This document shows positions 89 through 35,345 of a stretch of 35,345 nt of DNA, in pieces. The notes beneath the pieces were generated by a model. That model was given only the letters and a program-made list of their open reading frames with translations, did no database searches and was not told the origin of the DNA. A program made the translations under genes and the position numbers. The stretch is from positions 1 to 35,345 of the IMG/VR virus record IMGVR_UViG_3300030098_004745; one strand, written 5' to 3'. The stretch is from a virus. The number at the start of each line of letters is the position of its first letter. Positions within the stretch are counted from its first letter, which is position 1.

Positions 89-101
89 GTATTGGTAATT
101 A

Positions 102-3731: not shown

Positions 3732-3738
3732 GGTTTAG

Positions 3739-7788: not shown

Positions 7789-7797
7789 TTGTTTATT

Positions 7798-7823: not shown

Positions 7824-7827
7824 ATCC

Positions 7828-8037: not shown

Positions 8038-8302
8038 TGATTTAAGCGCGTACCTTTCGGATTTCGGGGTTTCCTGTACATCCGGGAGTACGACTGCGTC
8101 GGGAATATTGGATCAGCCTTCTCAGGTGTTAGCGGGAGATATGGTCCTTACAACTGATTACTTATTAACAGCAAAGGCCAGTGACTTTGGAAGTCTACTT
8201 TCAGGGGATGCGATCACTGTTGATTCTCAGAACTATGAAGTAAGAGAAACGAGACTTCAAGACGATGGTTCTTTTGTTGAAATTTCACTACAGAAGGTTT
8301 AA
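8024..8302 (+). CDS. Head-tail joining protein, gpFII-like
   Basis: 92 residues, about the size of lambda gpFII family members (Phage_attach). The order of elements fits: short N-terminal helix, GSTTASGILDQP, a central strand with LTTDYLLTAKASD, LSGDAITVDSQNYEVRET and a C-terminal VEISLQKV strand. The protein would form the ring to which the finished tail binds. The ATG overlaps the previous gene by 14 bases, and the stop TAATG overlaps the next start, so the three genes are probably translationally coupled. Confidence 0.7.
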   Translation: MAINDDLSAYLSDFGVSCTSGSTTASGILDQPSQVLAGDMVLTTDYLLTAKASDFGSLLSGDAITVDSQNYEVRETRLQDDGSFVEISLQKV

Positions 8303-8739: not shown

Positions 8740-8804
8740 TACGTCGACGAGAGAACCTGTCTAATATATACATAACTGATTTCAAAGCTTGAGGCTGACA
8801 ACGA

Positions 8805-9968: not shown

Positions 9969-10023
9969 CCCTCTTGAAATAATATTAAGATTTACTAGGC
10001 TTACTTAGTCCTATTAAGTTTTT

Positions 10024-10404: not shown

Positions 10405-10739
10405 TAGAAGCAGCGGAGCATTGGTGTGATGGTGTAGAGGTTGACGAGACTGAAGATGACGCTGCCGTCTTAGGAATTGTGATTCTTGATCAACCTGTAA
10501 AGTCTAAATATTTTGAGGTAATACCAGAAGCTCAACCTGCTGTAGAAATGTTTCTGCGTGTACAAACGCAATGGAGAACAGATCAAGGTGTGATTCTTGG
10601 TCTTGATTACAATCCTCTTTTTACGGTGATGGAGTTAAGCAATATAAAAGAGCCGTTGGAATTATTATCGGACGTTCAAGTAATAGAAGGTAAAATAATA
10701 GAGATACTAAGTGAACGTAGCAAAAAAGATGTCTCTTAA
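10401..10739 (+). CDS. T extension of the tail assembly chaperone (frameshift product gpGT-like)
   Basis: Read after the -1 slip, this frame adds 112 residues to the 126 of gpG, giving a 238-residue fusion. The added part contains EHWCDGVEV, VEMFLRVQTQWRTDQG and GLDYNPLF, which match the pattern of the DUF1799/gpT-like family (F..TQWR...G..GLDY). There is a GTG at 10479 but no sign of an independent ribosome site, so frameshifting is the better explanation for its translation. The end overlaps the start of the tape measure gene. Confidence 0.8.
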   Translation, partial: LIEAAEHWCDGVEVDETEDDAAVLGIVILDQPVKSKYFEVIPEAQPAVEMFLRVQTQWRTDQGVILGLDYNPLFTVMELSNIKEPLELLSDVQVIEGKIIEILSERSKKDVS

Positions 10740-12558: not shown

Positions 12559-13022
12559 TGAGCAACAGAGGACAAGCGCAGTATCTCAGGATTTACTCTG
12601 GGGGAACCGATAAGCAACTTTGGCAGTCTTACTATGTCAATTCAACAATTTCTTTAAGCTCTAAAAGTTGGAGCTATTTCCCCTTTACAGCCGATGGGTT
12701 GATGTCATCTTCCGCGAGTGGTGGTAATGCTGTTTCTATTTCTTGCCCTGCTACCACAACGGCAATTGCCGCCTTAACAGAGGCTTTAGACAATCAATAT
12801 TTATGTGAATTGAAGGTTTATGAATTTGACTCACGGTTATCTAATTCAGTACCTCAATCAGGTCAATCTTTAATCGTCAATTTCTTAGGAGTAATTACAA
12901 GCGTAGGGGGTAATTTTGAAACGCTAGTTGCAAATCTTGGTTCAAGTATTTCTCCAGTGGGAGCATCAGCCCCGCCTCGTAAATTCACCACTGACTTAAT
13001 AGGAGTACCAATAAGACTATGA
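12558..13022 (+). CDS. Minor tail protein in the gpM/gpL position
   Basis: 154 residues, acidic to neutral, rich in Ser, Thr and beta-forming residues, ending in RKFTTDLIGVPIRL. I do not recognise the family with certainty. Its place between the tape measure and the gpJ-like hub, with ATG overlapping the tape measure stop (TAATG) and its own stop overlapping the hub start (ATGA), makes it a tail-tip component, by analogy with lambda gpM or gpL. Confidence 0.6.
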   Translation: MSNRGQAQYLRIYSGGTDKQLWQSYYVNSTISLSSKSWSYFPFTADGLMSSSASGGNAVSISCPATTTAIAALTEALDNQYLCELKVYEFDSRLSNSVPQSGQSLIVNFLGVITSVGGNFETLVANLGSSISPVGASAPPRKFTTDLIGVPIRL

Positions 13023-15526
13023 ATATTAAGGTTTCTGATCCTCTTTCTTTACTTCCCTATCAAGCTGGTTTAACTGGAGATTCTCTTGTTGATGAGGCAG
13101 GACAAGGCAACACATCATTAGATGTAAAGCAAAAGGCTTGTGAGATAGGCCAGCCAGTTCCCATAGTCTTCGGCCGTCGTGTAACGGTAGGTAGTGATGA
13201 GGTGGGAGGTGTTTTTGTTGCGCCTCCTGCAACAAGTGGAAGATATGAAAACGATTCAACAACTAACGTTTTAACCGTTAATTTACAATTAATTCTTAGT
13301 CAAGGTCAGATAGGAGATATTAAAGAAAATCAGGTTTATCAAAGAGCCTGTAGGGTCGGGACATGGAAAAGAGCTTATAACCAAAGGGCTAGCAGTTGGG
13401 TTCCTGGAAATCATATAGTAACTGTTAGTAATAAAGAGCCGTGGGACTGTCCGTCGTATTGTGGTACTGATTCAAAATTCACAGATTTAACCTGTCTCAG
13501 CTATACAAATACACATGCAGATAATGATAAGACTTTTGATAAACAGGTTTATGTTTTTGTTGAAAATGGTTTAAAGGTTACAAGAATATTAGATAGTCAA
13601 TTAGGCAGTAGTAATAATTTTATTGATTTAGCTATTTATTTAATCAAACAATCGAGAAGGCTTCCTAATGACATGATTGATACTACGTCAATGACGGCGG
13701 CGGCAAACTTCTTAAATACAAATAATTTCTTATGTAATGGGGTTTTTGATAAATCAGAAAACTTAGAAGATTGGCTTACTAAAACAGGAAATTTATTTTT
13801 ACTACGTCTCTCTGAGAAAGATGGGAAAAAATGCTTTAAGCCGAGATTGCCTGTAAATGCTGATCATAGTATTAATTCAACTAATGCTATTGTTCCGAGT
13901 TTTTCATTTACAGAGGATCATGTCTTAGACGGTAGTTTTCAGATTGAATATATCCCGATCACTGAGAGGCAAGACGCTTGCGCTTTAGTGCTTTGGAGGC
14001 AACAGCCTGATAACGATATAGGCATTGTTCGTACTTCTGAAATCAAGCAAACGGGTGTTACTGATCCCGTTATTATTCAATATGATTTGTCTCAGTGGTG
14101 TTGCTCAGAATCTCACGCTGTTAAATATGGTGCCTATCAAATAGCTAGAAGAAAATACATTACCCATACTTTAAGAATTTCAGTAAGGCCATCAACCTTT
14201 AATAGCACCCTTGCATTAGGCGATATTGTCAGAGTCAGGCTTAGACGTGAAACCAATGCAGGTACAGTTGATTATCATGATTATTTTTACGAAGTAGAGC
14301 GTCTTGAAAAAAATACCAGTGGGATCATCCAATTAGATCTTATTCATTTCCCAGTAGATTCAGATCAAAAAAGCATTGTGGCTCAAGCCGTTGTTGCTGC
14401 GACAGCAGTTGGCACCGTTTTGCCTACGGGAAGAAATGATTTGACTTGCCATACAAATACAGGGACTGGAAATATTGCAGATGATGGTATCTCTTACCCT
14501 TATTCAGGTTTCCCAGCGATAGGGACAACTGATTTTACTTTAGGTGTATTTAATCCGAGTACTGAATTTGAAGAACCAACTGAGGTTGTCGATCCTTTAG
14601 ACGAAGAAATCGCGGTCGGGCTTACAGATGATCGCACAACTACTGATCCTCTTAAGGTCGGTGATACTGTTACTGCATCAGGCGGTTCTTGTGTTGGTGG
14701 GCGCGTTTGTTGGTATAGAAGAAACAAAATAGGAGGTGAAACAAACCCTTCTCCCACATGGGGAGTTAAAACGTTGATTAGTTGTAGTAGTACCGACACT
14801 GGAAGCGCTTCTATGACTTTAACTAGCAGCGATGTTGATTACTATTTAATAGCTGAATGGTCTTGTCCTGATCCTTCAAGTGCTGACGGTTTTGGTACTC
14901 CTTATAAGGTGGCAGAATTTGGCCCTGTTGAAATTGATCCAGCTAACTTTACTTATGCTCGATGGAAAGGAACAACTACGAAATATATAGCGTCTGGTTT
15001 ATATCCGATTGGTGGAGGAAACTTTAATAATGTTCCAGAAGAGACAACAACAGTTGAAGTCACAAGTACATGGTTTAAACGTACAAATGCAGCGTCAGAC
15101 CCTGCTTATTATGTTTATGCAACTTATTTAACAATTACGGGGGGTAATACTTGTGTTAATAATGCTTTCACATGTGGCGGCCCAACGGGTGCCATTACTT
15201 CTGAAGCATTAGGAAATATAACTTATCCTCCATCAGGGCCGATCCCTTGGAGAGCTAGCGTTAAGTCTAATCAAACTGAATCAGGCTCATCAGTTTGTCA
15301 AACGCTAGGTGGAATTGGACAAGATGCTAATAATTCTGGTTGTTATAGTGGCAATTTTTCTTCTCCTCAATTAAGCCCTGGAGGATCTACTAAAGAGAGT
15401 TATTGGGCTATTGAGGGTAAATGGGAATTTTCTAATGATGAGTCACACCAAACTAATAAAAGTATTGATGCGGTTTGGAGTGGCAGGCAAAGTGAAGATG
15501 ACGGTTTCCACTATACGTTTACATAA
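13019..15526 (+). CDS. Tail tip hub / host specificity protein, gpJ-like
   Basis: 835 residues. The N-terminus (CEIGQPVPIVFGRR, GGVFVAPPAT) and the following hub region (DWLTKTGNLFLLRLSEKDGK, DHVLDGSFQIEYIPI, LALGDIVRVRLRRE near 400-430) match the central tail hub found in many siphophages. Residues from about 500 onward are fibronectin- or Ig-like beta domains and a Cys-containing C-terminal region, probably the variable host-contacting part. It would link tail tube, tip complex and fibres and bind the host surface. Confidence is high for hub, low for which segment binds the receptor. Confidence 0.78.
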   Translation: MNIKVSDPLSLLPYQAGLTGDSLVDEAGQGNTSLDVKQKACEIGQPVPIVFGRRVTVGSDEVGGVFVAPPATSGRYENDSTTNVLTVNLQLILSQGQIGDIKENQVYQRACRVGTWKRAYNQRASSWVPGNHIVTVSNKEPWDCPSYCGTDSKFTDLTCLSYTNTHADNDKTFDKQVYVFVENGLKVTRILDSQLGSSNNFIDLAIYLIKQSRRLPNDMIDTTSMTAAANFLNTNNFLCNGVFDKSENLEDWLTKTGNLFLLRLSEKDGKKCFKPRLPVNADHSINSTNAIVPSFSFTEDHVLDGSFQIEYIPITERQDACALVLWRQQPDNDIGIVRTSEIKQTGVTDPVIIQYDLSQWCCSESHAVKYGAYQIARRKYITHTLRISVRPSTFNSTLALGDIVRVRLRRETNAGTVDYHDYFYEVERLEKNTSGIIQLDLIHFPVDSDQKSIVAQAVVAATAVGTVLPTGRNDLTCHTNTGTGNIADDGISYPYSGFPAIGTTDFTLGVFNPSTEFEEPTEVVDPLDEEIAVGLTDDRTTTDPLKVGDTVTASGGSCVGGRVCWYRRNKIGGETNPSPTWGVKTLISCSSTDTGSASMTLTSSDVDYYLIAEWSCPDPSSADGFGTPYKVAEFGPVEIDPANFTYARWKGTTTKYIASGLYPIGGGNFNNVPEETTTVEVTSTWFKRTNAASDPAYYVYATYLTITGGNTCVNNAFTCGGPTGAITSEALGNITYPPSGPIPWRASVKSNQTESGSSVCQTLGGIGQDANNSGCYSGNFSSPQLSPGGSTKESYWAIEGKWEFSNDESHQTNKSIDAVWSGRQSEDDGFHYTFT

Positions 15527-15528
15527 TT

Positions 15529-15900
15529 ATGGCTTCTGATTTTCCCTCGTTAACTCCTAGTTCTCGTGTTTTTACGCCTGGCTCTGTCGCCTCTAGTAAT
15601 CTTGGTCATTTATCAGGAGAACAAACAGCCGTTAGACATTCAAGCGTCTCATATGGGCATCGGTTAAGAATGACGTTTGTCTCTGTGACAAGGGCTCAAC
15701 AGCAAAACCTTGTTTCACACTTTGCCTTTCACGGTCATTTCGAGCCGTTCGATTTACCAACAGAAACACTCGTTGCAACTAACTTAACTTTCCCTACTGG
15801 TTATCAATGGCGATATGCAGAAAGCCCTGAAATAGAAGAAGTAGAAGGACAAATAAATATGTCTGTCAGTCTTGAATTATTGCCACCTTATACAATTTAA
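15529..15900 (+). CDS. Small tail-tip protein, copy 1 of a tandem pair
   Basis: 123 residues, no transmembrane segment. It shares a pattern with the next gene: P-S, a GHRLRMTFVSVTRAQQQNLVSHF block, F-LP and WRYAESPEI, then alternating hydrophobic residues. The next protein has GHQIKFTYTDLTQDEVTLFRDHY and YRYVDTPDE in the same places, so both seem to be copies of one domain. Function is unknown; position between hub and fibre suggests a baseplate or fibre-attachment role. Confidence 0.62.
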   Translation: MASDFPSLTPSSRVFTPGSVASSNLGHLSGEQTAVRHSSVSYGHRLRMTFVSVTRAQQQNLVSHFAFHGHFEPFDLPTETLVATNLTFPTGYQWRYAESPEIEEVEGQINMSVSLELLPPYTI

Positions 15901-15902
15901 CA

Positions 15903-16445
15903 ATGAACGATTACCCAGATAGCCGCAAACCTAATTCAATAAGTTATGACGTAGGCGGCTTAAATGTAAGTGAATCAAAGACATTAACATCAGGTCCAAT
16001 AAGATTTAGACGTAGCAATGTGCTTACAGGTCATCAAATAAAATTCACTTACACAGACCTAACGCAAGACGAAGTAACATTGTTTCGTGATCATTATTTA
16101 GACGCAGCGGGACAACATAACTCGTTTCAAATTCCTCAAAGTGTTTTTGGTGGGGCAAATATTACTCAGAGTACAAGTTATTACCGCTACGTTGATACAC
16201 CTGACGAAACACAAAAAGGGGTGTTCCATGATATTGAGATTTCGGTTGTAGTTTTAACAGGAATCAACCTGACATATAAATTGACTGCTGAAAATGCGTC
16301 GTTACCTGCTACAGAGTCGACAGTTACTGATAGTTTATTTTTAAATGGAACTGGACCGTTCATATTAAATTGCGATGATGCAACCCCACATACGGGAACT
16401 ACATTACAATATTCACTAATTGCGGGTAATGCTAAGGGCGCATGA
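15903..16445 (+). CDS. Tail-tip protein, copy 2 of the pair with extra C-terminal domain
   Basis: 180 residues. The first 120 resemble the whole preceding protein, as described there. The last 60 residues (LTAENASLPATESTVTDSLF, GTTLQYSLIAGNAKGA) are Ser/Thr/Ala-rich, as in fibre linkers. The stop overlaps the next ATG (ATGA at 16442). It probably attaches the fibre encoded next. The family name is not recognised. Confidence 0.6.
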   Translation: MNDYPDSRKPNSISYDVGGLNVSESKTLTSGPIRFRRSNVLTGHQIKFTYTDLTQDEVTLFRDHYLDAAGQHNSFQIPQSVFGGANITQSTSYYRYVDTPDETQKGVFHDIEISVVVLTGINLTYKLTAENASLPATESTVTDSLFLNGTGPFILNCDDATPHTGTTLQYSLIAGNAKGA

Positions 16446-17296
16446 CACAAACAACGGTAAGGGTACAACTACAGCAACGAGTTTCAACTGATAGCGAATG
16501 GAGCTCTGCTAATCCTGTTTTGTTGCTTGGAGAAGTTGGGCACAATTCAACAAATAAGCAGTATAAGTTGGGGGATGGCTCAACGCAGTGGAATAGTCTT
16601 GCTTATGCGGGCGCAAGTGTACCAACGACTATCACGGTTGCTGATGAGTCAACAGACACCTCTTGTAATGTAGCGTTTTTTACTGGCGCAACTGGTGACC
16701 TAGCCCCTAAGACTGGCACGAATCTCACCTTCAATTCAAATACAGGGGCGTTGACAGCTACATCCTTCGTTGGTGCGTTGACTGGCAATGCAGATACCGC
16801 AACGACTTCAACAAATGCTAATCATGTTTCCGTAGCAGATAATGAAAGCACAGATGAAAATAATTTAATTCCTTTTATTGAAGATGCTTCAGCTACTGGG
16901 AATGTAGGTTTAGAAAGTGATGGTGATTTTCATTACAACCCTAGTACAGGAAAAGTAACAGCAACAGCCTTTGTAGATGGTAAAGGTTCAGTTAGGTCTA
17001 TACCTCAAAATTCGCAATCTAGCGGTTATACAATTGTTGCGGCTGATGCGGGAAAACATATTTATATTTCTACTGGTGGCGTGACTTTTGCCGCTGGTAT
17101 CTGTTCGGTTGGCGATGCTTTGACGATTATTAATAATTCTGCATCTGATCAAACAATTACTTGTAGTGCCGTAACTATGTATTTAGCGGGTGATACATCA
17201 GCAAAAACCTCTCTTACTTTAAAAGGTCGAGGCATGGCTACTTTCTTATGTACGGCAAGTAATGTTTATTATGGATCTGGTGGAGGGCTTGAGTAA
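16442..17296 (+). CDS. Tail fibre protein with Mtd-N-like N-terminus
   Basis: 284 residues. The N-terminus (VRVQLQQRVSTDSEWSS, LGEVGHNSTNKQYKLGDGST, WNSLAYAG) matches the short domain at the start of many phage fibres (major tropism determinant N-terminal type). The middle has TGALTATSFVGALTGNADTAT and a second such repeat at KVTATAFVDGKGSV, typical of trimeric beta-prism shafts in marine phages. The C-terminus is a small beta domain. There is no reverse transcriptase nearby, so it is not part of a diversity-generating system. The stop overlaps the next start. Confidence 0.75.
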   Translation: MTQTTVRVQLQQRVSTDSEWSSANPVLLLGEVGHNSTNKQYKLGDGSTQWNSLAYAGASVPTTITVADESTDTSCNVAFFTGATGDLAPKTGTNLTFNSNTGALTATSFVGALTGNADTATTSTNANHVSVADNESTDENNLIPFIEDASATGNVGLESDGDFHYNPSTGKVTATAFVDGKGSVRSIPQNSQSSGYTIVAADAGKHIYISTGGVTFAAGICSVGDALTIINNSASDQTITCSAVTMYLAGDTSAKTSLTLKGRGMATFLCTASNVYYGSGGGLE

Positions 17297-18246
17297 TGCC
17301 TATTCAGCAAATGTTATTAGCTACAGCGGCTGCAGGCATAACACCTGATGGGCAAACGAATTACACAGGCTCGACGGGTGCAACTTTTTCCTGGGTTTGT
17401 CCTGCTGGTGTAACTAGTGTTTCTGTTTGTTGTATAGGTGCTGGAGGCGCTGGGGGTGCTCCTGCTTCAATGGGAACTGCGACGGTAGGCGGGGGCGGGG
17501 GCGCATGTGCCTATAAAAACTCCATAAGTACGGTTCCTGGTCAGAGCTATACAGTTGTTGTTGGTGCGGCTGCTCAAGGTGGTATTGCTAATCAAGTTGA
17601 TGGGGGTGATTCATATTTTATAAGCGCTTCAACTGTGATGGCTAAAGGAGGTCAAACACCTAACAGCAGTAATACAACTCGTCGAGGTGGAGGGCAATCA
17701 TCAGCTTGCGTTGGAGATGGTGCGTATTCAGGTGGTGACGGTGGTGCTGTTAATGGAGGGGGTTACGGCGGCGAAGGTTCAAGTAGTGATGGAGCCAATG
17801 GATCTGCTGGTGATACATCACGCAACGCGGCAGGAAACGCAGGCGGCGGCGGCGGCGGCGGCGGTAGTGCAACCTCTAATACAGGGAAGGGGGGAGATGC
17901 AGTTTCTAGTAATATGAATCATATCGGGGCTGGCGGTGGTGGTGGTGGCTGCGTAAATTCAACGACCTCAAACCCAGGCGGCGGGGGCGGGGGGGGCTAT
18001 GCTGGGACTACTGCTTATGAAGGAGGGACGGAGACTTCAGGCAACAGACCTGGCAGTGACTCATTCTTCCCCGTTTCTTTTGGTTTAGGCGGTTGGGCTG
18101 GTGATTGGGGCGGCGGCGGTTCAGCTTATAACCCAAATTGGACTGGGGCAGGATACCCGGGAAGTATGGGCCTTGTTCGTATAATTTGGTCTACTTCTGG
18201 CGCGGCTAGGGCTTTTCCTAGTACTAACATTGGCGACCTAACTTAG
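17296..18246 (+). CDS. Glycine-rich tail adhesin
   Basis: 316 residues. After an N-terminal region (FSWVCPAGVTSVSVCCIGAG) come many polyglycine runs: GAGGAGG, GGGGGA, GGDGGAVNGGGYGGEG, AGGGGGGGGSA, GAGGGGGGC, NPGGGGGGGY and GLGGWAGDWGGGG. This is the pattern of glycine-rich caps and of polyglycine-sandwich adhesins such as the distal gp38 adhesin of some T-even phages. Loops between the runs would contact the host. It lies directly after the fibre, TAATG-coupled. Coding includes (GGC)7 at 17842-17862 and a G8 tract at 17989-17996. Confidence 0.7.
   Translation: MPIQQMLLATAAAGITPDGQTNYTGSTGATFSWVCPAGVTSVSVCCIGAGGAGGAPASMGTATVGGGGGACAYKNSISTVPGQSYTVVVGAAAQGGIANQVDGGDSYFISASTVMAKGGQTPNSSNTTRRGGGQSSACVGDGAYSGGDGGAVNGGGYGGEGSSSDGANGSAGDTSRNAAGNAGGGGGGGGSATSNTGKGGDAVSSNMNHIGAGGGGGGCVNSTTSNPGGGGGGGYAGTTAYEGGTETSGNRPGSDSFFPVSFGLGGWAGDWGGGGSAYNPNWTGAGYPGSMGLVRIIWSTSGAARAFPSTNIGDLT
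17842..17862 (+). repeat. (GGC)7 trinucleotide repeat inside the adhesin gene
   Basis: Seven GGC units followed by GGT encode eight glycines in a row. Length changes by slippage would stay in frame and alter a polyglycine run of the adhesin. A G8 tract follows at 17989-17996, where slippage would instead shift the frame. Confidence 0.8.
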
Positions 18247-18248
18247 TT

Positions 18249-18737
18249 ATGACTTACTACATAAAAGTAGATGAAAACAATTCACCTGTAGGACATCCCT
18301 GTTTAGAAGAAAATTTAAAACAAGCATTCCCTGATCATGATTGGTCTAGTGGTCCTAAAACTGGCTATTTAGAATTTATTCATCACCCACCAAATAAAGG
18401 CGTTTATCAAAAATTTGATGAAACAGTAGGAGTCGATATATCTTTGGCTTATAACCATAACGGGCTTGAATATAAATTAATTGATGGCAAGATTCAAAGC
18501 TATTGGCATTACATAGATATGACTGATGATGAAAAGAAAGAACTACAAAATTCTATAAAATCTAATTGGGCTGCTTTAGATCCAGCCGGTCCGGCTTCTT
18601 GGACTTTTAATGAAACTACTTGTAAATATGAAGCCCCAGTTGCAGTACCTTCTGATGCATGGTCTTTAGAAAATACAGACGGTAAATTTTATCAATGGGA
18701 TGAATCAACAACAACTTGGAAAGAAATAACAGAGTAA
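18249..18737 (+). CDS. Fibre-associated protein or fibre assembly chaperone-like
   Basis: 162 residues, acidic, soluble. The N-terminus MTYYIKVDENNSPVGHPCLEENL and the C-terminal Trp-rich pattern (SWTFNETTCKYEAPVAVPSD, FYQWDESTTTWKEITE) resemble small proteins that follow fibre genes in cyanophages and other phages. A role in fibre folding or as a fibre component is likely by position. I cannot name a family with certainty. Confidence 0.6.
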   Translation: MTYYIKVDENNSPVGHPCLEENLKQAFPDHDWSSGPKTGYLEFIHHPPNKGVYQKFDETVGVDISLAYNHNGLEYKLIDGKIQSYWHYIDMTDDEKKELQNSIKSNWAALDPAGPASWTFNETTCKYEAPVAVPSDAWSLENTDGKFYQWDESTTTWKEITE

Positions 18738-18816
18738 AAATTTATTACTGAATTGGCTTAAGTTGCTAATACTAAGCAGGCCTATTAAAGTATGACTGCA
18801 AGGCTTACTTTTTTTA

Positions 18817-19032
18817 ATGGTAAGGAAAATTTTAGATGGGATTAGCGTTGCATCTTTTGCTATGTCGTTGACCATTTTGCTAGGTGGTGGGTATGTCTAT
18901 ATGCGACGGGCTGATTTTGTTAATTCGATGATGCTAACGCTTCAAGACCAAATGGTAGATATTATTCAACATCAAATAAAACAACAAATAAAACTGCCAA
19001 GTGCAACGGGTAGAGCATTGCCTTTTAAATAA
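18817..19032 (+). CDS. Small membrane protein with one transmembrane helix
   Basis: 71 residues. One hydrophobic segment (about 10-29: ISVASFAMSLTILLGGGYVY) is followed by an amphipathic helix (MMLTLQDQMVDIIQHQIKQQIK) and a short tail. A holin-like or virion-associated membrane role is possible. It lies in a three-gene set (18817-20351) after the tail genes. The 79-base spacer before it has weak terminator-like pairing (TAAGC 18773, GCTTA 18802, then T7), of low confidence. Confidence 0.6.
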   Translation: MVRKILDGISVASFAMSLTILLGGGYVYMRRADFVNSMMLTLQDQMVDIIQHQIKQQIKLPSATGRALPFK

Positions 19033-19548
19033 ATGAAAGAGAACTTCTTACCCGGTTTGCTCGGCCTTGGACTTATTGGATCAAATCTATTTTCCTTGAC
19101 CCTTTTATCAAATGCCAGTAGCGATAAAATCCCTGACCTTGCAAGGCTTCAAACTACAGAGAATAGCGCGTCACAGTTGAAATATAAGCGTTCAGAATCT
19201 GGTGATTTAGAAGTTCTTGTTACCCATAACATGCACCAACCCAAAACAACCTTGTTCTCAGAAGAAAAGACTAAATGGCATGGAAAGACTGACTACAGCA
19301 GAAAAGAATATATTGCCCATCATCCAGTAGATAGTGCGAGATTAACGGCTGAATATTTACAGTGCATTAAAGATAAAGGCAGCGCAGAATCTAACGGGGA
19401 GATCGTAGGAACTTCTTTAGTTACTGCTACACCTGCAGCTAGTACCTTATCTAATATTCCTTTTATAGGTTGGGTTGCTAGTGCATTCGCTGTTAAAAAA
19501 GCTGGTCAGATTGGCAAGAATATAGGCGGTGATTTTGTTGATTGCTGA
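19033..19548 (+). CDS. Membrane-anchored protein of unknown function
   Basis: 171 residues, starting immediately after the previous stop. The N-terminus (FLPGLLGLGLIGSNLFSLTLL) is a signal anchor or signal peptide. A second hydrophobic stretch is near 140-160 (LSNIPFIGWVASAFAVKKAG). The middle contains EKTKWHGKTDYSRKEYIAHH. No catalytic motif of a lysozyme, amidase or peptidase is visible. I do not recognise the family. Confidence 0.6.
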   Translation: MKENFLPGLLGLGLIGSNLFSLTLLSNASSDKIPDLARLQTTENSASQLKYKRSESGDLEVLVTHNMHQPKTTLFSEEKTKWHGKTDYSRKEYIAHHPVDSARLTAEYLQCIKDKGSAESNGEIVGTSLVTATPAASTLSNIPFIGWVASAFAVKKAGQIGKNIGGDFVDC

Positions 19549-19550
19549 TC

Positions 19551-20351
19551 GTGGAGCTAGAGGCACCTTATATAAAAGAAGCTGAAGTTAAACAATTACC
19601 AGAACTAACAATAATTCCTCCCGCTGAAATCATTCCTCCGACAACTCTAGGTGAGCTGCCGTTTGGTTTTGTTCCCATTGTTGAAATGCCTTGTGTTGTA
19701 GCAAGAGATAAGAAGACAGGAACTGGTAGTGAAATGTTTAATGTCGATCCTAAAAACAATCTAGTTCTATGTGATCACGCCCCGGCGATGTATATAGCTC
19801 CTGATGCTTATGTCGACATCGAACCGCCAAAGCCTAATGCTGAATTACTAAGGGGATTAGGCAACGAAAGAGAGGAAGTGAAAGAAAAGAATAGTCAAAA
19901 AGACAACAAGGGTAATTCCAACGTAAACCAAAATCAAACCTCAAATCTTGATGGAGAGTTTATTGCAGAAATATTGCCGTGTCCTCCCCTTGATACATTG
20001 GCAAAAACACCAGTAGGAAGTTTAGGTAAAGGAGGTTTAGCCAGAATAAAAGGCTGGAAAAGAGACGAGCTTACGGGTAAATGTGAAACGGTATGGGAAG
20101 GTTTAAACCCTTTAGAGATTGCGGGTAATTATGCACCTCAACCTACGGTTTTAGTCAATACAAGTGCCATTGCAGTTGCAAGTGTTCTTGCTGTTGGTAC
20201 GTTGCAACCGTATATAAAGATTCTCCAAAAACAAATTCAAAAGCAAGTCAAAAAAAGATCTAAAAAACTTGCAAAAAGTTTATTTAAGAAGAAGGAGAAG
20301 ATAATGTCCCTTTCTGAAAGGAGAAAGGCTCAGAGGGATCTGAGGGCATAG
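19551..20351 (+). CDS. Proline-rich protein with C-terminal membrane segment
   Basis: 266 residues from GTG 19551 (TTG 19542 is an alternative in frame). The N-terminal half (VELEAPYIKEAEVKQLPEL, IPPAEIIPPTTLG, VPIVEMPCVVAR) is Pro-rich. A Gln/Asn-rich linker near 110-130 precedes PLEIAGNYAPQPTVLVNTSA, a hydrophobic helix near 206-222 (AIAVASVLAVG) and a very Lys-rich tail. As I recall, similar proteins occur in cyanophages, with no known function. The 3' end overlaps the convergent gene at 20284 by 68 bases. Confidence 0.62.
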   Translation: MELEAPYIKEAEVKQLPELTIIPPAEIIPPTTLGELPFGFVPIVEMPCVVARDKKTGTGSEMFNVDPKNNLVLCDHAPAMYIAPDAYVDIEPPKPNAELLRGLGNEREEVKEKNSQKDNKGNSNVNQNQTSNLDGEFIAEILPCPPLDTLAKTPVGSLGKGGLARIKGWKRDELTGKCETVWEGLNPLEIAGNYAPQPTVLVNTSAIAVASVLAVGTLQPYIKILQKQIQKQVKKRSKKLAKSLFKKKEKIMSLSERRKAQRDLRA

Positions 20352-23239: not shown

Positions 23240-23261
23240 AAGGGTTTACCCCTTAATAGTA
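23240..23261. promoter_or_regulatory. Candidate operator, site 1 of 5
   Basis: AAGGGT-TT-ACCCCT is an imperfect palindrome of the same type as the sites at 25927, 29035, 29192 and 30071. It is followed by AATAGTAA, which also follows or precedes the palindrome at other sites. It lies between the leftward gene at 23094 and the rightward gene at 23317, where either promoter could be controlled. A TATTATATAA stretch at 23272 may be a rightward -10. Confidence 0.55.
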
Positions 23262-25926: not shown

Positions 25927-25941
25927 ATGGGTTTACCCTTA
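25927..25941. promoter_or_regulatory. Candidate operator, site 2 of 5
   Basis: GGGT-TT-ACCC at 25929-25938, with A-T flanks and CCCTTA as at other sites. It lies in the 29-base gap (25919-25947) between genes of the leftward operon, just before ATG 25918. It may control an internal promoter; no clear -35/-10 pair is visible. Confidence 0.5.
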
Positions 25942-29034: not shown

Positions 29035-29091
29035 AGGGGTTAACCCTTTACTATTGGAGCCTAGTATTACTCATAAGACTAAGTAGCGCAA
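29035..29091. promoter_or_regulatory. Divergent control region with operator, site 3 of 5
   Basis: The palindrome AGGGGT-TA-ACCCTT lies at 29035-29048, one base from the leftward ATG at 29033. Rightward: TTAACC (29040-29045), 16 bases, TAGTAT (29062-29067). Leftward: TTGCGC (29091-29086), 16 bases, TAATAC (29069-29064), with transcription starting near 29057, so the operator would lie in the first bases of the message. Both -10 boxes overlap. Promoters were read by eye. Confidence 0.5.
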
Positions 29092-29189: not shown

Positions 29190-29210
29190 TAAAGGGTAAA
29201 CCCTTACTAT
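29190..29210. promoter_or_regulatory. Candidate operator, site 4 of 5, before the repressor gene
   Basis: AAGGGT-AA-ACCCTT (29192-29205) is a perfect palindrome, followed by ACTAT as at site 3. It ends 8 bases before the chosen ATG (29213) of the repressor-like gene, a position suited to autoregulation. Sites 3 and 4 are about 157 bases apart, centre to centre, which would permit looping. Confidence 0.6.
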
Positions 29211-29212
29211 GT

Positions 29213-29962
29213 ATGCCTGAAAAGAAAAGCAGGAAACGAGATTGGGCTAAAGAGCAAGCGTTGAGGCTTGAAGCGCGCTTAGCATTAGGAAAAAGTGACA
29301 GACGCTGGCGGGAGATGAATTTTTTATCTCAGCAGAACTGTCATGACTGGGCAAAAGTGGCGGGTGTTCCTCTTCATAATTCACAGATTGCTTATTGGGA
29401 AAGAGGGAGACTAGATCCTAAGATTGAATTTTGGTTTGCCCGTGAAGCTTATAATTTCGCAATAGCAGAGAATGATTTTCCTTCAGGTCTTTCTCGTACT
29501 GTAAAAGACCGTTTAATAGCAGCAGAGCCATATTTGAATCACGAAGGTGAAGTTGCAGATGCTTTGGATTTCCAAGCGATCTTTGGGAATAGGCAGCCTA
29601 TTAATTCCTTATATACAAAGACGGAAGAGCTAACTGATGATTTCCTTTCATTGTTTGCAGAAGAACTAGAAAAAGCGTTTAAGACAACGGCTAGGGAGCT
29701 AATGCTGAAAAATAACGAGTTTTGGGATGAGTTATGCAAGACAGAGCCAATGAAGAAGGTGAAAGAAAAGAGAGTGGCACAAGTCGCGCAGGACATGCTT
29801 CGCGGGGAGAGTGTGCCGACGAAAGAAGATGTTGAGTATGTTCTTCTAAAATATAAGCAATGCCCTGCATGTATGGGTATTAGCAAATTAGCTAATAAAG
29901 AGACATCAAAAAAGATGGAATCACTCAATTCTAAACTGGTGTCTCTTGCTATGACTTCATAA
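29213..29962 (+). CDS. Repressor-like XRE-type helix-turn-helix protein
   Basis: 249 residues from ATG 29213. The frame is open further upstream (TTG 29120, ATG 29168) but those starts would translate the operator. N-terminus basic (MPEKKSRKRDWAKEQ), then an XRE-like helix-turn-helix about 38-68 (LSQQNCHDWAKVAGVPLHNS, IAYWERGRLDP). The C-terminal 150 residues are helical and contain CPAC near 220. It lacks a LexA/S24 peptidase signature. Location between the two early operons with operators on both sides suggests a CI-like immunity repressor. Confidence 0.68.
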   Translation: MPEKKSRKRDWAKEQALRLEARLALGKSDRRWREMNFLSQQNCHDWAKVAGVPLHNSQIAYWERGRLDPKIEFWFAREAYNFAIAENDFPSGLSRTVKDRLIAAEPYLNHEGEVADALDFQAIFGNRQPINSLYTKTEELTDDFLSLFAEELEKAFKTTARELMLKNNEFWDELCKTEPMKKVKEKRVAQVAQDMLRGESVPTKEDVEYVLLKYKQCPACMGISKLANKETSKKMESLNSKLVSLAMTS

Positions 29963-30070: not shown

Positions 30071-30103
30071 AGGGGTTGACCCCTTACGATTGAATAGTAA
30101 TAT
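30071..30103 (+). promoter_or_regulatory. Early rightward promoter with overlapping operator, site 5 of 5
   Basis: TTGACC (30076-30081), 16 bases, TAATAT (30098-30103). The palindrome AGGGGT-TG-ACCCCT (30071-30084) covers the -35, so a bound repressor would block polymerase. The message would start near 30110 and the first gene ATG is at 30124, with almost no leader. This is the clearest promoter in the window. Confidence 0.68.
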
Positions 30104-30123
30104 CGGTTTGTTCTGCACTTACT

Positions 30124-30333
30124 ATGCCCAACAAAGAAAACCGAGCATATGATTTTTTATGCACGCTCAAGGAGTCAACAGCGCAAATAGTGGACTCAGC
30201 ATTGAAGGCTTTTAATGAGGCTTATGAAACGATGGATTGGAATCAGCTCGATTCGGATCAAAGAAAGTCGGTTCAAGGTTGGCAAATTGACCTTCAAAAA
30301 GCTAATGGCTTAATTAACGAAAACAATGTCTGA
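30124..30333 (+). CDS. Small acidic helical protein, first gene of the rightward operon
   Basis: 69 residues. Helical (TLKESTAQIVDSALKAFNEA, DSDQRKSVQGWQIDLQKANG). No family is recognised. Placed directly behind the operator-controlled promoter, with almost no leader and no Shine-Dalgarno, and overlapping the Erf gene by 8 bases. Confidence 0.6.
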   Translation: MPNKENRAYDFLCTLKESTAQIVDSALKAFNEAYETMDWNQLDSDQRKSVQGWQIDLQKANGLINENNV

Positions 30334-30991
30334 CATACGAAATTTAAAAGAACTTCCAAAAGCTTTAATTCGTTTTCACAATACGCTTCCCGCAATTGAA
30401 GAAAAAACATCAGGCGTTCATTCTAGTAAGTATGCACCTTTGTCCTATATACAAGGGATTACAGTTCCTCTACTAGGTGCCCAGGGTCTTGTTTGCATTC
30501 AAACTTTTGAGGTTGAGAATGACAACGAATATTTAGTTACTCATTTACTACATGAAAGTGGTGAGTCGATCTGCGGTAAGACCAAACTTATAAAAGGTTC
30601 AATGAGAGAACCAAATCAAGACTGGGGTGCTGGTGTTACTTACAGGTCGAGATATGCCTATTTAAAAATGCTTGGTATATCAGCGGGAATGCCTGACATC
30701 GTTGATCAAATTGTGGTTAATGATGCTATCCCTACGTCTGACAGAGAAAAGCCAGAGGACTTAGTTCCTCCAGAAGAAGCGACAGCAACTGATGAACTTC
30801 TAACTTCTGATTTTGCTAAGGCTTATTTATTGGATCTTGAAGGTTGGGCTAAAAAGAACCCAACAAAACTTCCTGATCTAAAAAAGGCTTATAAGAAAAA
30901 GTTTCCTGACTTCACAGGTGCTTTCACTGGGCATGTACAAGAACAAAGGCATGTTCAATTTATTGATGATTTCACAAATTCACTTAAGTAA
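30326..30991 (+). CDS. erf: Erf-type single-strand annealing protein
   Basis: 221 residues. Erf superfamily, which anneals single strands during recombination and circularisation. The pattern is present in order: SSKYAPLSYIQGITVPLLGA, GLVCIQTFEVEN, YLVTHLLHESGESICG and DWGAGVTYRSRYAYLKMLGI, the conserved core. The C-terminal third is variable and helical (DLEGWAKKNPTKLPDLKKAY). It should work with SSB (two genes downstream), the PD-(D/E)XK nuclease and RusA. ATGA overlap with the next gene. Confidence 0.9.
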   Translation: MSDIRNLKELPKALIRFHNTLPAIEEKTSGVHSSKYAPLSYIQGITVPLLGAQGLVCIQTFEVENDNEYLVTHLLHESGESICGKTKLIKGSMREPNQDWGAGVTYRSRYAYLKMLGISAGMPDIVDQIVVNDAIPTSDREKPEDLVPPEEATATDELLTSDFAKAYLLDLEGWAKKNPTKLPDLKKAYKKKFPDFTGAFTGHVQEQRHVQFIDDFTNSLK

Positions 30992-31242
30992 TGAGTGACA
31001 ACGAGTTCAATGCAAATCAACAAAGTCGTCGGTATGTTCGCCGACGGCGACCTCCCGGTTTGTCGAATTGGGAATGGGAGTCTGATAAAGAACTCCATAA
31101 AAGTCGCAATCACGTCGCTGCAAAATTGACTGACTTAAATTCATTTGCTTTTGAGACTTATAAAAAGAAACACAACCTAAACAACAACTCCGGCCTTAAC
31201 AGGCTGATTGCTACACATCCCGAATTAAAAAACGATGCTTAA
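30991..31242 (+). CDS. Small basic protein of unknown function
   Basis: 83 residues. Arg-rich near the N-terminus (SRRYVRRRRPPGLSNWEWES), then a helical part (LTDLNSFAFETYKKKHNLNN, GLNRLIATHPEL). Nucleic-acid binding is possible. It is coupled to Erf through TAATG and overlaps SSB by 8 bases, so it probably belongs to the same recombination unit. Confidence 0.62.
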   Translation: MSDNEFNANQQSRRYVRRRRPPGLSNWEWESDKELHKSRNHVAAKLTDLNSFAFETYKKKHNLNNNSGLNRLIATHPELKNDA

Positions 31243-31573
31243 TGTCACAGCCGTTGGCAATGTTGCCTTCGATCCAGAGCAAAAACAAGTTGGTGATTTT
31301 AAAGTCACCTCTTTCAAGCTTTTAGTTAACAAGAAAATAAAAGACGAAGAAATCACAACTGCGATTAAATGTTCCGTTTGGGGCAACCGTGGTGATGTCG
31401 TCATGCTTTATGTAAATAAAGGAATGAAACTCACGGTTAGTGGTAGTGCTTATGTTCGTGCCTTTTTAAGAAAGGATGAAACTCCAGCGGGAGAGCTAGA
31501 ACTAAGAGTGGATGATTTCTCTTTACCTCAAAAGCCAAAAGCAGAGGATCTTGCCTCTGAAAAGCCATTCTAA
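31235..31573 (+). CDS. ssb: Single-stranded DNA-binding protein
   Basis: 112 residues, one OB fold: LNVTAVGNVAFDPEQKQVGD, VTSFKLLVNKKIK, AIKCSVWGNRGDVVMLYVNK and MKLTVSGSAYVRAF follow the SSB order of strands (N-x-x-x-x-G-x-x-x-x-D-P, F-x-x-A/L, V-x-x-W-G). The C-terminus ASEKPF ends in the Pro-Phe tip that recruits partners, though the preceding residues are less acidic than in the host type. It protects single-stranded DNA for the Erf/nuclease reaction. Confidence 0.9.
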   Translation: MLNVTAVGNVAFDPEQKQVGDFKVTSFKLLVNKKIKDEEITTAIKCSVWGNRGDVVMLYVNKGMKLTVSGSAYVRAFLRKDETPAGELELRVDDFSLPQKPKAEDLASEKPF

Positions 31574-31576
31574 AAA

Positions 31577-32476
31577 ATGGAGGATAACTTGGGGTGGTAC
31601 TTGCAGCAAGTAAGTCGAGCCCCACTTTTGACTCCTAGTGAGGAGATCACGCTAGGTAGTGAAGTTCAAAAATATATGGCTATCAGAGATAAAAAGGATC
31701 TCACGCCAGAAGAACGACGAATTATCAAAAGAGGTAAAAGGGCTAAAGACAGAATGTTTCAAGCCAACTTGAAGTTGGTTGTTCATCTTTGCCGTAAATA
31801 TAGCGAGGGTGGCAGTATGACCTTGTTGGACATGATTCAAGAAGGAAATATTGGTTTATCGAGAGCTATAGAAAAGTTTGACCCGAAACTTGGTTATAAA
31901 TTTAGTACTTACTCTTATTGGTGGATTCGGCAGGCAATTACTCGTTCGTTAATGATTAGTGATCGGACGATAAGGATTCCACTCAATGCGTTTTCAATGC
32001 ATAAGGCAGTTGCTTCATTTTCAGAAGAATTTTTAGCAAAGAATAAGAGATGGCCCACAGTACAAGAATGTGCTGATTTTTCTGGTGTAAGGGTTCAAAC
32101 GATGAGGGCTTACCTCGATCACGTAAGAAGTCCTTTAAGTTTGGATATGAAAGTGATGCATGGTAATAATTTTGTAAGTGATATGTTTCTGCTTGATGTA
32201 ATTGCAAGTGAATATTCAAGCCCGGATCAAGAACTAGAAATCAGAGAAGGGTTGGAGAATCTCGATGAATTTATAAGCGAGCTACCTAGAAGGTCGCAAG
32301 AAGTGATTTATATGCGTTATGGATTGGAGCAAGAGAGACCCAAAACTTACGAAGAAATCGGAAGGATTCTTGGTGTTAGCCGTGAAAGAGCAAGGCAAAT
32401 CGAACAAGAAGCCTTAAATAAGATGAGGCGTTCTTACATCCGATTTGTTAAAAACCAAGGCAAGGACAAGCCTTGA
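31577..32476 (+). CDS. Sigma-70 family RNA polymerase sigma factor, group 2-like
   Basis: 299 residues. Region 1.2: about 3-34 (DNLGWYLQQVSRAPLLTPSE). Region 2: about 57-130, including NLKLVVHLCRKYSEGG, DMIQEGNIGLSRAIEKFDP and YSYWWIRQAITR. Region 3: about 135-215. Region 4: about 230-287, with helix-turn-helix TYEEIGRILGVSRERARQIE. All core- and promoter-binding regions are present, so it should act as a working sigma factor; the layout is like cyanobacterial group 2 sigmas. It ends the repressor-controlled early operon, three bases after SSB. Confidence 0.93.
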   Translation: MEDNLGWYLQQVSRAPLLTPSEEITLGSEVQKYMAIRDKKDLTPEERRIIKRGKRAKDRMFQANLKLVVHLCRKYSEGGSMTLLDMIQEGNIGLSRAIEKFDPKLGYKFSTYSYWWIRQAITRSLMISDRTIRIPLNAFSMHKAVASFSEEFLAKNKRWPTVQECADFSGVRVQTMRAYLDHVRSPLSLDMKVMHGNNFVSDMFLLDVIASEYSSPDQELEIREGLENLDEFISELPRRSQEVIYMRYGLEQERPKTYEEIGRILGVSRERARQIEQEALNKMRRSYIRFVKNQGKDKP

Positions 32477-32495
32477 TTGTGTAGTTTTTGTGTAG
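32477..32495 (+). repeat. Arm-type integrase site candidate, copy 1
   Basis: TTGTGTAGTTTTTGTGTAG, itself two TTGTGTAG units 11 bases apart. An identical 19-base copy lies at 32663-32681, on the other side of attP. Pairs of identical short repeats flanking a core are typical of the arm sites that the N-terminal domain of lambda-type integrases binds. The copy starts one base after the sigma factor stop. Confidence 0.65.
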
Positions 32496-32525: not shown

Positions 32526-32573
32526 TCGGGGCGACAGGATTCGAACCTGCGACCTAGTGCTCCCAAAGCACGC
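32526..32573 (-). other. attP core: 3' half of a tRNA-Pro(TGG) gene
   Basis: Read on the minus strand: anticodon loop TTTGGGA with anticodon TGG (32567-32561) closed by GTGC/GCAC, variable part TAGGTC, a T-arm GCAGG-TTCGAAT-CCTGT and the acceptor 3' strand CGCCCCG with discriminator A (32526). The 5' half of a tRNA is missing, so this is not a functional tRNA but the segment left in phage DNA so that integration into the host tRNA-Pro restores it. Confidence 0.85.
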
Positions 32574-32662: not shown

Positions 32663-32681
32663 TTGTGTAGTTTTTGTGTAG
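32663..32681 (+). repeat. Arm-type integrase site candidate, copy 2
   Basis: Exact second copy of the 19-base repeat at 32477, six bases before the integrase ATG at 32687. It includes a TTG at 32663 that could begin a longer integrase frame, but as an arm site it is more likely noncoding. A small hairpin (GACGC/GCGTC, 32636-32656, around TTCGCGAA) lies just before it. Confidence 0.65.
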
Positions 32682-32686: not shown

Positions 32687-33874
32687 ATGTGGGATGGGGC
32701 TAGCTTGAAAGGGCTAATTAAAGCGTTTGGCAAAGGGTGGGGAATCAGAGAACACGATGGAATGATAAGGATTCATCATCGTCCGGGTGGAGTACAAAAG
32801 GCTGCTCCTTTAGGTTTGAAATGGCATGAAAGTAATTCAGGTGAAGCTTTCCTTAGAGCAGAACAAATACGAAAACTTGTCAAAAAAGGTCTTTCTATAA
32901 AGCAAGCATCTAAGAAAGTTATTGGTGGCAGCTCTTTAACAGAGGAAGATTGGGTTGGAGCGTTATATCGTTTTAAAGAGCAAAAAATAAAGCACGATAC
33001 AAATATTTCAGAGGGAACTTGGAAGCACGATTATGCACCAGTTTTAAAGATGGCGGTTGCTTTTCTTGTAGGAAAAAAAGCTCCAACGAATCCCGCTGAC
33101 TTGATTGATCTTTGTATTCGTGAATGGGAACCCGGCAGTCCTTCCCGTAAAAGAAGAACAAATAATCTCTGCCAATTCCTCGCTTACTGCGTCGAGCGTG
33201 AAAATTACTCTTCTAGTTGGTATCCGCCTAATAATAGAAAAACTCATATTGGTAGAAAACCAGCGAATGTAAAAACTCAAAAGGTTGATGCCTTAACTGA
33301 CGAGGAAATATTGTTTTTGATAGATGGTATGCCACAAACCCCTGCAGGTGCTCGTTGGGTTGCTGCAATTATGATTATGGCCGTTTATGGCTTAAGGCCC
33401 GTAGAACTAAAGCACATACAAGTAAAAACCAATAAAAAGACTAAAGAACCTTATCTTTGGTGTAACTATCAAAAAAGAGCCGGAGCAGGCGTTACAAAAC
33501 CAAGAGAGTTAATGCCTTTGGCTGTTGCAGGTCAAAACTGGAACTTGCTCTGGCGATTACAAAATGACGAGATTGATTTACCTTCTCTGCAAGGGAAAGG
33601 TGGTGTTGGTGATGCTGCTTTAAAGTATTTCAAGAAAAGAGCAGCATTTAAGGAGTTACAAGAAAAGCTCGCAAAAAGGGGAGAACGTATTGGTTCTTAT
33701 AGTTTCCGTCATTCTTTTTCTGTAAGAGGCCATCAAAAGAATATTGATGCGGGTTCTGTAGCTACAGCAATGGGTCATTCGCTTGAAACGCATCTTCGTT
33801 CGTATCCTTGGGCAACAAGCGAAACAACAAAAGAAGCATTCCGCAAAGCAGAGAGTATTGCTAATACTAAGTAA
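32687..33874 (+). CDS. int: Tyrosine recombinase integrase
   Basis: 395 residues from ATG 32687. The catalytic domain shows Arg I in YGLRPVEL (R237), Arg-His in YSFRHSF (R341, H342), GHS (H364) and the nucleophile Tyr in LRSYPW (Y373). The usual HxxR box has Tyr in place of the first His (YSFRH). An N-terminal arm-binding and core-binding part precedes (residues 1-195). It should integrate the phage at tRNA-Pro using the adjacent attP. Start preferred over TTG 32663, which lies in the arm repeat. Confidence 0.93.
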   Translation: MWDGASLKGLIKAFGKGWGIREHDGMIRIHHRPGGVQKAAPLGLKWHESNSGEAFLRAEQIRKLVKKGLSIKQASKKVIGGSSLTEEDWVGALYRFKEQKIKHDTNISEGTWKHDYAPVLKMAVAFLVGKKAPTNPADLIDLCIREWEPGSPSRKRRTNNLCQFLAYCVERENYSSSWYPPNNRKTHIGRKPANVKTQKVDALTDEEILFLIDGMPQTPAGARWVAAIMIMAVYGLRPVELKHIQVKTNKKTKEPYLWCNYQKRAGAGVTKPRELMPLAVAGQNWNLLWRLQNDEIDLPSLQGKGGVGDAALKYFKKRAAFKELQEKLAKRGERIGSYSFRHSFSVRGHQKNIDAGSVATAMGHSLETHLRSYPWATSETTKEAFRKAESIANTK

Positions 33875-33888: not shown

Positions 33889-34098
33889 ATGGACGCGAAG
33901 ATTCACGAAATGACGACTTGGGTCACAATTAAAGAGCTAGCTAATCAATCTAGGGTTTCAGTGCGAACAATGGAGAAGATGAGGGATTCTAGTTTCACGA
34001 TTGGTAAGCATTACCGTAGAAAAACGCCCGGTTCTCGAAACCTTCTTTATGACCTAGAAGCGTGCGAGAAAACAATTAATAGACTATGCTCGGTTTAG
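33889..34098 (+). CDS. xis: Excisionase-like DNA-binding protein
   Basis: 69 residues. WVTIKELANQSRVSVRTMEK is a helix-turn-helix of the Exc/HTH_17 type, followed by GKHYRRKTPGSRNLLYDLEA, common in recombination directionality factors that follow integrase genes. Fourteen bases after int and before two terminators, so the pair forms one operon beside attP. It would bend DNA and favour excision during induction. A simple regulator role cannot be excluded. Confidence 0.78.
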   Translation: MDAKIHEMTTWVTIKELANQSRVSVRTMEKMRDSSFTIGKHYRRKTPGSRNLLYDLEACEKTINRLCSV

Positions 34099-34099: not shown

Positions 34100-34127
34100 T
34101 CTCTCCAGGGGTGGAGGGGCTTTTTTT
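34100..34127 (+). terminator. Terminator 1 after xis
   Basis: TCTCTCC pairs with GGAGGGG (with G-T pairs) around AGGGGT, then C and seven T. It lies directly after the xis stop. Confidence 0.8.
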
Positions 34128-34143
34128 CTTGCTATGTTCATGG

Positions 34144-34167
34144 CCTCCTTTAAAAGGGAGGTTTTTT
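34144..34167 (+). terminator. Terminator 2 after xis
   Basis: CCTCC pairs with GGAGG, with further T-A pairs inward, followed by six T. Together with the hairpin at 34100 it forms a double terminator that insulates int-xis from the right-end genes. Confidence 0.78.
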
Positions 34168-34238: not shown

Positions 34239-34427
34239 ATGACTTCTCATAGGCTTACGGCTGATGAGTTTCGTAATATATTTAAGGCATACAAAGACAA
34301 TCCCGACCAACAGATAGCCGTTGAGATTCTTCGGCAGCATATGGCAGAGGATTGTGCTTCCCTTCTAAATCACGATTCTTTATGGCTTAAAAAATATAAA
34401 ACAACTCCTAATCCTTATCTCCTTTAA
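34239..34427 (+). CDS. Small protein of unknown function at the right end
   Basis: 62 residues, helical (LTADEFRNIFKAYKDNPDQQ, VEILRQHMAEDCASLLNHDS). No family is recognised. The spacer before it (34168-34238) shows no clear promoter. Two bases separate its stop from the next ATG, so the two are cotranscribed. Confidence 0.55.
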   Translation: MTSHRLTADEFRNIFKAYKDNPDQQIAVEILRQHMAEDCASLLNHDSLWLKKYKTTPNPYLL

Positions 34428-34429
34428 AC

Positions 34430-35302
34430 ATGCCTGCTGTATCTATCACGCTCAAAGAAGAGTTTACTAAGGCATCTAATTGGCCTCCAGCTATCGCTCG
34501 GTCTATTCCTTTTATGTTGCAAGAGGCTATGGCTAAGGGTGCAAAGAAGTCTGCTGATTCTTTATCAGCTCAGATGGCTAGGAAGCTACATCAACCTAAG
34601 AAGAGAACTGTCAACGGAGTATTCCCTAAAAAGATTAGAAAGCCTAGTACTAAAAAGCTGGTAGTAGTGATGGGGCTAACAGGTGGCGGGCCAAAGGATG
34701 AACCCGGTGGAAGAGATGGTTCACCTGCGTGGTATCTAAAGGCTCTTATTAAAGGCTCTCGACGTACCCGTAAGGCTTCCGAGTCTGTTCTACATAGAAG
34801 CAATAAACTTAAACGCAACCAATATATTGTCCCAACTAACTCTCCTTCCTTTCCTTTAAATACAAAGGGCAACCTAACTGGTGGTAAGTACACACAAGTA
34901 CTTAGTAGGATCAAAGCTCATAGTGAGATGGGATACACAGCTAACACCACCAAGGGTATGGGTAGTCGAGGTCGCAGTGGTAGGAAGAGGTCTGCTGTAG
35001 ATTTCTTTATAGGGTCTCCCGGTAACGTTGGTGATCTATACGGGAAGAGTCCTTGGATGCAATACGGTATTCAAAAGCGTGTTGGACCTAGACCTGCTGG
35101 CAACCCCGGCGGTAGAGGTAGACCTGTTACCACTAACCTTCCCAGAGGTTTCAATACTATCTTCTGGATAGCTGACCAAGCACCAAGGTATCGACGCATG
35201 CTTCCCGTTGGCACCATCCTTACTCGTACCTTCGATAACGTTTATACACCTGAGATGACAAGACAGATCCGTGAAAAAATAAAAAGGATTCTCAAAAAGT
35301 GA
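34430..35302 (+). CDS. Minor tail protein Z-like / DUF6441-like candidate
   Basis: 290 residues, very basic. The N-terminal SITLKEEFTKASNWPPAIAR, PFMLQEAMAKGAKKSADSLS and RKLHQPKKRTVNGVFPKKIR, then YLKALIKGSRRTRKASE, VPTNSPSFPLNTKGNLTGGK, MQYGIQKRVGPRPAG and the end PRYRRMLPVG resemble a phage family that I associate with minor tail/neck proteins (gpZ-type). A gpZ gene is missing from its usual place after the gpFII-like gene, so this copy may have moved to the genome end. The call rests on motif memory and is uncertain. Confidence 0.45.
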   Translation: MPAVSITLKEEFTKASNWPPAIARSIPFMLQEAMAKGAKKSADSLSAQMARKLHQPKKRTVNGVFPKKIRKPSTKKLVVVMGLTGGGPKDEPGGRDGSPAWYLKALIKGSRRTRKASESVLHRSNKLKRNQYIVPTNSPSFPLNTKGNLTGGKYTQVLSRIKAHSEMGYTANTTKGMGSRGRSGRKRSAVDFFIGSPGNVGDLYGKSPWMQYGIQKRVGPRPAGNPGGRGRPVTTNLPRGFNTIFWIADQAPRYRRMLPVGTILTRTFDNVYTPEMTRQIREKIKRILKK

Positions 35303-35332: not shown

Positions 35333-35345
35333 GGTATTTTGGGAC
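35333..35345. other. Right genome end, copy of the 13-base terminal repeat
   Basis: GGTATTTTGGGAC, identical to positions 2-14. See the left end. Bases 35303-35332 carry no gene; they are GC-richer and contain the GCGGG arm that pairs with CCGC of the left end. Confidence 0.55.

Follow-up and report, generated by a model that had tools for sequence, protein, structure and literature searches.

A virus that carries a complete sigma-70 family factor raises the question of whose genes that factor serves. In the DNA considered here, the sigma gene closes an operon that appears to be under repressor control. The candidates are the late genes of the virus, the genes of its host, and the viral genome as a whole.

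Genome and closest isolates

The window, meaning the whole stretch of DNA that was analysed, corresponds to a 35,345-base virus record of IMG/VR with 42% G+C. Terminase, portal, head, tail, replication, recombination, integrase and excisionase genes are annotated in it from Pfam and PHROG matches. The sequence GGTATTTTGGGAC is present at both ends of the record (2-14 and 35333-35345). Because the genes that flank these two ends are contiguous in the related viral locus L315, the record probably contains the full genome, opened at cos, of a temperate cyanosiphovirus, a virus of marine cyanobacteria. Judged by the 835-aa tail protein, the closest isolates are S-CBS1, S-CBS3 and S-LBS1 (46%, 44% and 40% identity, respectively). 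No prophage with this tail protein was found among the 300 Cyanobiaceae genomes searched, and TerL matches in the search for prophages were confined to 6 of 400 genomes, at 51% or less. Between cos and the methyltransferase gene lie repeats of TGGTTTTCAAATG (56-68 and 76-88), which resemble repeats in G312, G306, G311 and G313 and are perhaps terminase-binding sites.

Early control region and operon

The control region and the operon that it precedes contain the following features:

29035..29048, no strand: operator copy AGGGGTTAACCCTT where the leftward early operon begins; equivalents in L315 and in a second related locus, L337
29192..29205, no strand: operator copy AAGGGTAAACCCTT, immediately before the start of the putative repressor gene
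29213..29962, + strand: putative repressor, 249 aa with start codon; XRE-like pattern LSQQN..WAK.AGVPLHNSQIAYWERG..DP; from sequence and position
30071..30084, no strand: operator AGGGGTTGACCCCT, a palindrome over the rightward early promoter; kept in L315 and L337
30076..30103, + strand: rightward early promoter TTGACC-16-TAATAT, inside and behind the palindrome; kept in L315 and L337
30124..30333, + strand: small ORF, 69 aa; 68-71% in relatives
30326..30991, + strand: Erf-family single-strand annealing protein; PF04404 2.5e-8, PHROG 3e-20
30991..31242, + strand: small ORF, 83 aa; 51% in relatives
31235..31573, + strand: SSB; PF00436 3e-13, PHROG
31577..32476, + strand: sigma-70 family factor, 299 aa, regions 1.2-4 without region 1.1

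The initial annotation had described a repressor-covered promoter that drives Erf, SSB and, last, a sigma factor. Both parts of this description are borne out: the palindrome at 30071-30084 overlies a promoter that is a good sigma-70 type site, and the order of the operon is confirmed by domain matches and gene spacing, all five genes from 30124 to 32476 overlapping or lying at most 3 bp apart. The counterparts of the combined operator and promoter (30071-30103) are TAGGGGTTGACCCCTTACGTTTAAATAGTAATAT in L315 and TAGGGGTTGACCCCTTACGTTCTAATAGTAATAT in L337. Further operator copies, with one to three mismatches, start at 29035, 29192, 23240 and 25927. With the two strands of a single palindrome scored separately, the window holds 16 matches to the operator motif against 5.8 expected, and as many were obtained in none of 100 shuffles. 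The palindromes at 23240-23253 and 25927-25940 are distant from the main control region, while the position of the copy at 29192-29205 suggests that the repressor regulates its own gene.

That the product of 29213-29962 is the repressor is suggested by its position, by the operators and by its XRE-like sequence pattern. It has no convincing family match in Pfam or PHROG, and its structure model, poor over the N-terminal part, is too poor for use. About 130 N-terminal amino acids are kept in L315 and L337, and the C-terminal part differs in L337. Two types of C-terminal part occur, one in the window, L315 and L318 and the other in L337 and L319 (counterparts at L337 4923-5669 and L319 3-734).

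Downstream, the gene order is identical in the window, L315 and L337, with the exception of the SSB slot: between the small ORF and the sigma gene, L315 and L337 carry an unrelated 96-aa gene in place of SSB. The product of this gene ends in EEMPF, which resembles an SSB tail.

Domains, residues and selection of the sigma factor

The protein matches the Pfam models of region 1.2 (3e-7), region 2 (2e-17), region 3 (4e-6) and region 4 (3e-17), all above the cut-off, and the PHROG 351 profile "RNA polymerase sigma factor" with an E-value of 1.9e-65. It aligns over its full length to solved SigA, HrdB and RpoD chains. Its N-terminus lies at region 1.2, region 1.1 being absent. The earlier claim of a complete factor with all core- and promoter-binding regions thus agrees with these matches. 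By architecture, with regions 1.2, 2, 3 and 4 present and primary-like -10 and -35 readers, it is a group 2 sigma-70 factor. The AlphaFold2 model (mean pLDDT 81) is confident in most of the four regions and weak at residues 128-136 and in the linker 183-198.

In the numbering of E. coli RpoD, whose residue roles serve as the general reference, the core-binding residues D403, Q406 and E407 are kept, as are W433, W434, Q437, T440, R441, R584, E585, R588 and Q589. At the positions of H455 and E458, the extended -10 readers of RpoD, the window factor has N455 and S458. SigA has the same readers of -10 and -35, so that a shift in specificity is not predicted. Elsewhere, the phage sigmas of L064 and L066 carry H or Y at position 585 and S at position 588, both of which read -35; together with those of L002 and L003, which also have changed -35-reading residues, they are candidates for altered promoter preference.

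The sigma gene is under purifying selection in L315 and L337 (dN 0.004, dS 0.06, dN/dS about 0.07, three amino acid changes); between the window and L315, dN is 0.44 and dS is saturated. Identity of the window to L315 and L337 is 54% for sigma, compared with 71% for Erf and 85-88% for the integrase. Consequently, the sigma factor changes fast between lineages.

Ancestry of the sigma factor

The initial annotation had called the factor a host-like group 2 sigma and proposed a phylogeny with the cyanobacterial groups. The group 2 part of this description stands on architecture; the host part, taken as ancestry, is not supported by the phylogeny, which places the factor in the phage clade. In a 105-row tree it groups with L315, L002 and other viral sigmas. 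In a 50-row tree, 20 phage and 30 cellular sigmas are separated by one branch with support of 99/97, and the window factor lies outside the cellular clade. A tree that unites the window and L315 with the group 2 sigmas of Cyanobiaceae is rejected (AU p 0.0003), as is one that unites them with all cellular sigmas (AU p 0.003).

The choice of rows matters, as the 50-row tree omits L029, L042, L024, S-LBS1 and other long rows, including P-SS2. In the larger tree, the viral rows L029 and L042 fall inside the cellular clade, and L024 and S-LBS1 are unplaced. Because the two viral contigs with host-type sigmas were excluded from the 50-row tree, the term "phage clade" is not valid for every viral sigma. 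A contig binned as Flavobacteriales (L083) also carries a cyanobacterial-type sigma, which is probably a binning error. The window sigma itself belongs to a virus-only branch and is not a recently captured host gene. Its PHROG 351 match, its placement in the phage clade and its location at the end of an annealing/SSB early operon identify it as a cyanosiphovirus sigma.

Gene neighbourhood in related viruses

Of the non-redundant viral loci, 28 extend at least 2.5 kb upstream of sigma, and in 16 of these a gene for annealing, SSB, exonuclease or RusA lies on the same strand within 5 kb. Downstream, a lysis gene in the opposite direction faces sigma within 2.5 kb, at a median distance of 671 bp, in 23 of the 33 such loci with at least 2 kb of sequence. 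The combined layout, with recombination upstream and lysis facing, is seen in S-CBS1, S-CBS3 and KBS-S-2A. The window lineage keeps the upstream part, and the downstream part consists of attP, int, xis and late genes.

G314 and G316 share the packaging module of the window, have RecT and exonuclease VIII in place of Erf, and show no sigma gene in records that may be incomplete. The sigma gene therefore seems to travel with the early module and not with the packaging module. Its absence from many TerL relatives is mostly explained by fragmentary records; that of G310, for example, stops inside the repressor.

Attachment site and late genes

The region behind the sigma gene contains the following features:

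32477..32495, no strand: TTGTGTAGTTTTTGTGTAG, with a second copy at about 32663-32681; L315 and L337 have equivalent pairs
32526..32568, - strand: attP core; its 43 nt match the 3' end of tRNA-Pro(UGG) of Cyanobiaceae exactly, and L315 and L337 have it at the same place
32687..33874, + strand: tyrosine integrase, ORF from 32663 with the likely ATG at 32687; Pfam and PHROG
33889..34098, + strand: excisionase (xis); PHROG
34100..34163, + strand: two hairpins that resemble intrinsic terminators, after xis and ahead of the late genes; from sequence
34239..35302, + strand: small ORF and minor tail protein that open the late genes, which run on across cos to 102-20351; PHROG and contiguity in L315

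The end of the sigma gene lies 49 bp from attP, and the TTGTGTAGTTTTTGTGTAG pair that flanks attP probably represents integrase arm sites. The 43-bp tRNA-Pro fragment occurs, with at most one mismatch, in 196 of 300 Cyanobiaceae genomes, and integrase homologs of about 40-49% identity adjoin tRNA-Pro copies in many of them. Some of these genomes hold up to 13 copies of the fragment, indicating a busy integration site. In the prophage, sigma would lie outermost at one end and face the rebuilt tRNA-Pro. As no forward terminator was seen between sigma and int, transcription from the early promoter could, in the circular form, read on through attP into int and xis.

A de novo motif search upstream of the late genes in seven genomes gave no clear consensus, with a likelihood above that of mono-nucleotide shuffles. 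Three elements picked out by eye did not yield a convincing late motif either. Counts of CTANGTAG are near expectation except in G310. TACATAAC occurs three times against 1.05 expected, once on the wrong strand, and a two-site match is expected by chance given the many comparisons. TATGNNNNCATA, chosen post hoc, totals 10 over all genomes against about 2.8 expected and is not at the late starts of the window; it is present in gaps before late genes in G306 (3684), G304 (8867), G311 (16071) and G313 (8715). In the late stretch from 1 to 20000, sigma-70-like sites number 23, fewer than the 38.9 in shuffles, so that obvious host promoters are scarce in this stretch. The Pfam and PHROG matches of the proteins scanned include no Q-type antiterminator, in line with the contrast to lambda Q in the initial annotation.

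Possible roles of the sigma factor

The most likely role of the phage sigma would be late-gene activation, a reading to which a probability of about 0.55 is assigned. It builds on the observed operator and promoter, the operon, the intact sigma, its phage-lineage ancestry and its conserved place at the end of the early operon. In the prophage, the rightward early promoter would be held off by the putative phage repressor. Upon induction or infection, the promoter would fire and lead to Erf, SSB and, last, the phage's own sigma. The latter is expected to bind host core polymerase, to displace or supplement host SigA, and to direct transcription to phage promoters; the promoters of the late genes that follow the terminators at 34100-34163 are most likely among them.

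A late switch would be consistent with the location at the early-operon end, with the two terminators ahead of the late genes, with the absence of a Q-type antiterminator from the proteins scanned and with the shortage of sigma-70-like sites in the late stretch. Against it stand the SigA-equal readers, the lack of a convincing late motif, and G314 and G316, which show no sigma despite the shared packaging module. Neither the canonical readers nor the outcome of the motif searches speaks for a special class of promoters. Tentatively, and with less than even odds, the idea may be extended to the whole virus-only sigma-70 branch, which would act as the late switch of temperate cyanophages in the place of lambda Q and be tied to the recombination module, with the altered -35 readers of other branches serving lineage-specific promoters.

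It is rather unlikely that the factor chiefly reprograms the host by mimicking its group 2 sigmas and redirecting carbon and energy genes, with the late genes using host sigma. Canonical -10 and -35 readers would suit host promoters. Host effects are a live alternative because expression of the S-CBS3 homolog, RpsD4, altered growth and acetyl-CoA in S. elongatus PCC 7942, according to a review (PMC10452541, citing Sawa 2019). However, that effect came from over-expression of a protein only 36% identical, and in diverse phages the gene closes a recombination operon, where phage regulators typically sit.

Less probable still is a factor with no early or late specificity, which would help to sustain transcription of the early and replication genes, or of the entire phage genome, once SigA declines or is inactivated. 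The predicted promoter reading is the same as that of SigA, and the early promoter itself is of the sigma-70 type; however, sigma is made only at the end of that operon and therefore cannot start it. Finally, it is very improbable that a host gene without a phage role was captured by imprecise excision, as its place 49 bp from the tRNA-Pro attP might suggest, given its phage-clade ancestry with the rejected union with host sigmas, its retention under purifying selection in L315 and L337, and the same sigma position in phages without a known attP there; no close chromosomal ortholog beside tRNA-Pro was seen in a host genome.

Comparison with known systems

Cyanosiphovirus sigma genes have been described in P-SS2 (Sullivan 2009, PMC2784084), S-LBS1 (PMC6157547) and KBS2A (PMC3751600). 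A review (PMC10452541) reports sigma genes for 65 of 153 cyanophage genomes and counts them as host-like auxiliary genes. In GenBank, the sigmas of S-CBS1 and S-CBS3 are annotated as group 2. The window factor is the same kind of sigma as rpsD4 of these two phages and the sigmas of KBS-S-2A and S-LBS1, with identities of 39% to S-CBS1, 36% to S-CBS3 and 35% to each of the other two. In S-CBS1, S-CBS3 and KBS-S-2A, the gene likewise lies at the end of an early operon, there leftward, after SSB or exonuclease. There the gene converges on the lysis gene, whereas the window sigma faces attP, int and the late genes. P-SS2, a marine Prochlorococcus siphovirus whose ORF113 is a "group 2" sigma, is comparable in having an integrase, an ssb beside the sigma gene and a putative tRNA-derived attP. 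P-SS2 differs in its much diverged sigma (HMM 105 versus 398 bits), in ssb following sigma, in its 107-kb genome and in a second, group 3 sigma.

Phage late or middle sigmas such as T4 gp55 and SPO1 gp28/gp34 are strongly reduced or diverged. They are likewise phage-coded, and the window factor, like them, is expected to redirect host core; unlike them, it is a full sigma-70 with canonical readers. Lambda Q occupies a comparable place, last in the rightward early operon, but acts on elongation, whereas a sigma acts on initiation, and no Q-type homolog turned up in the window proteins that were scanned. Phage sigmas of this sort are thus already known, and what is new is a lineage, its conserved operator and the evidence for phage ownership. 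Together, the tree and the recurring position suggest that cyanosiphoviruses have long had this regulator as a gene of their own.
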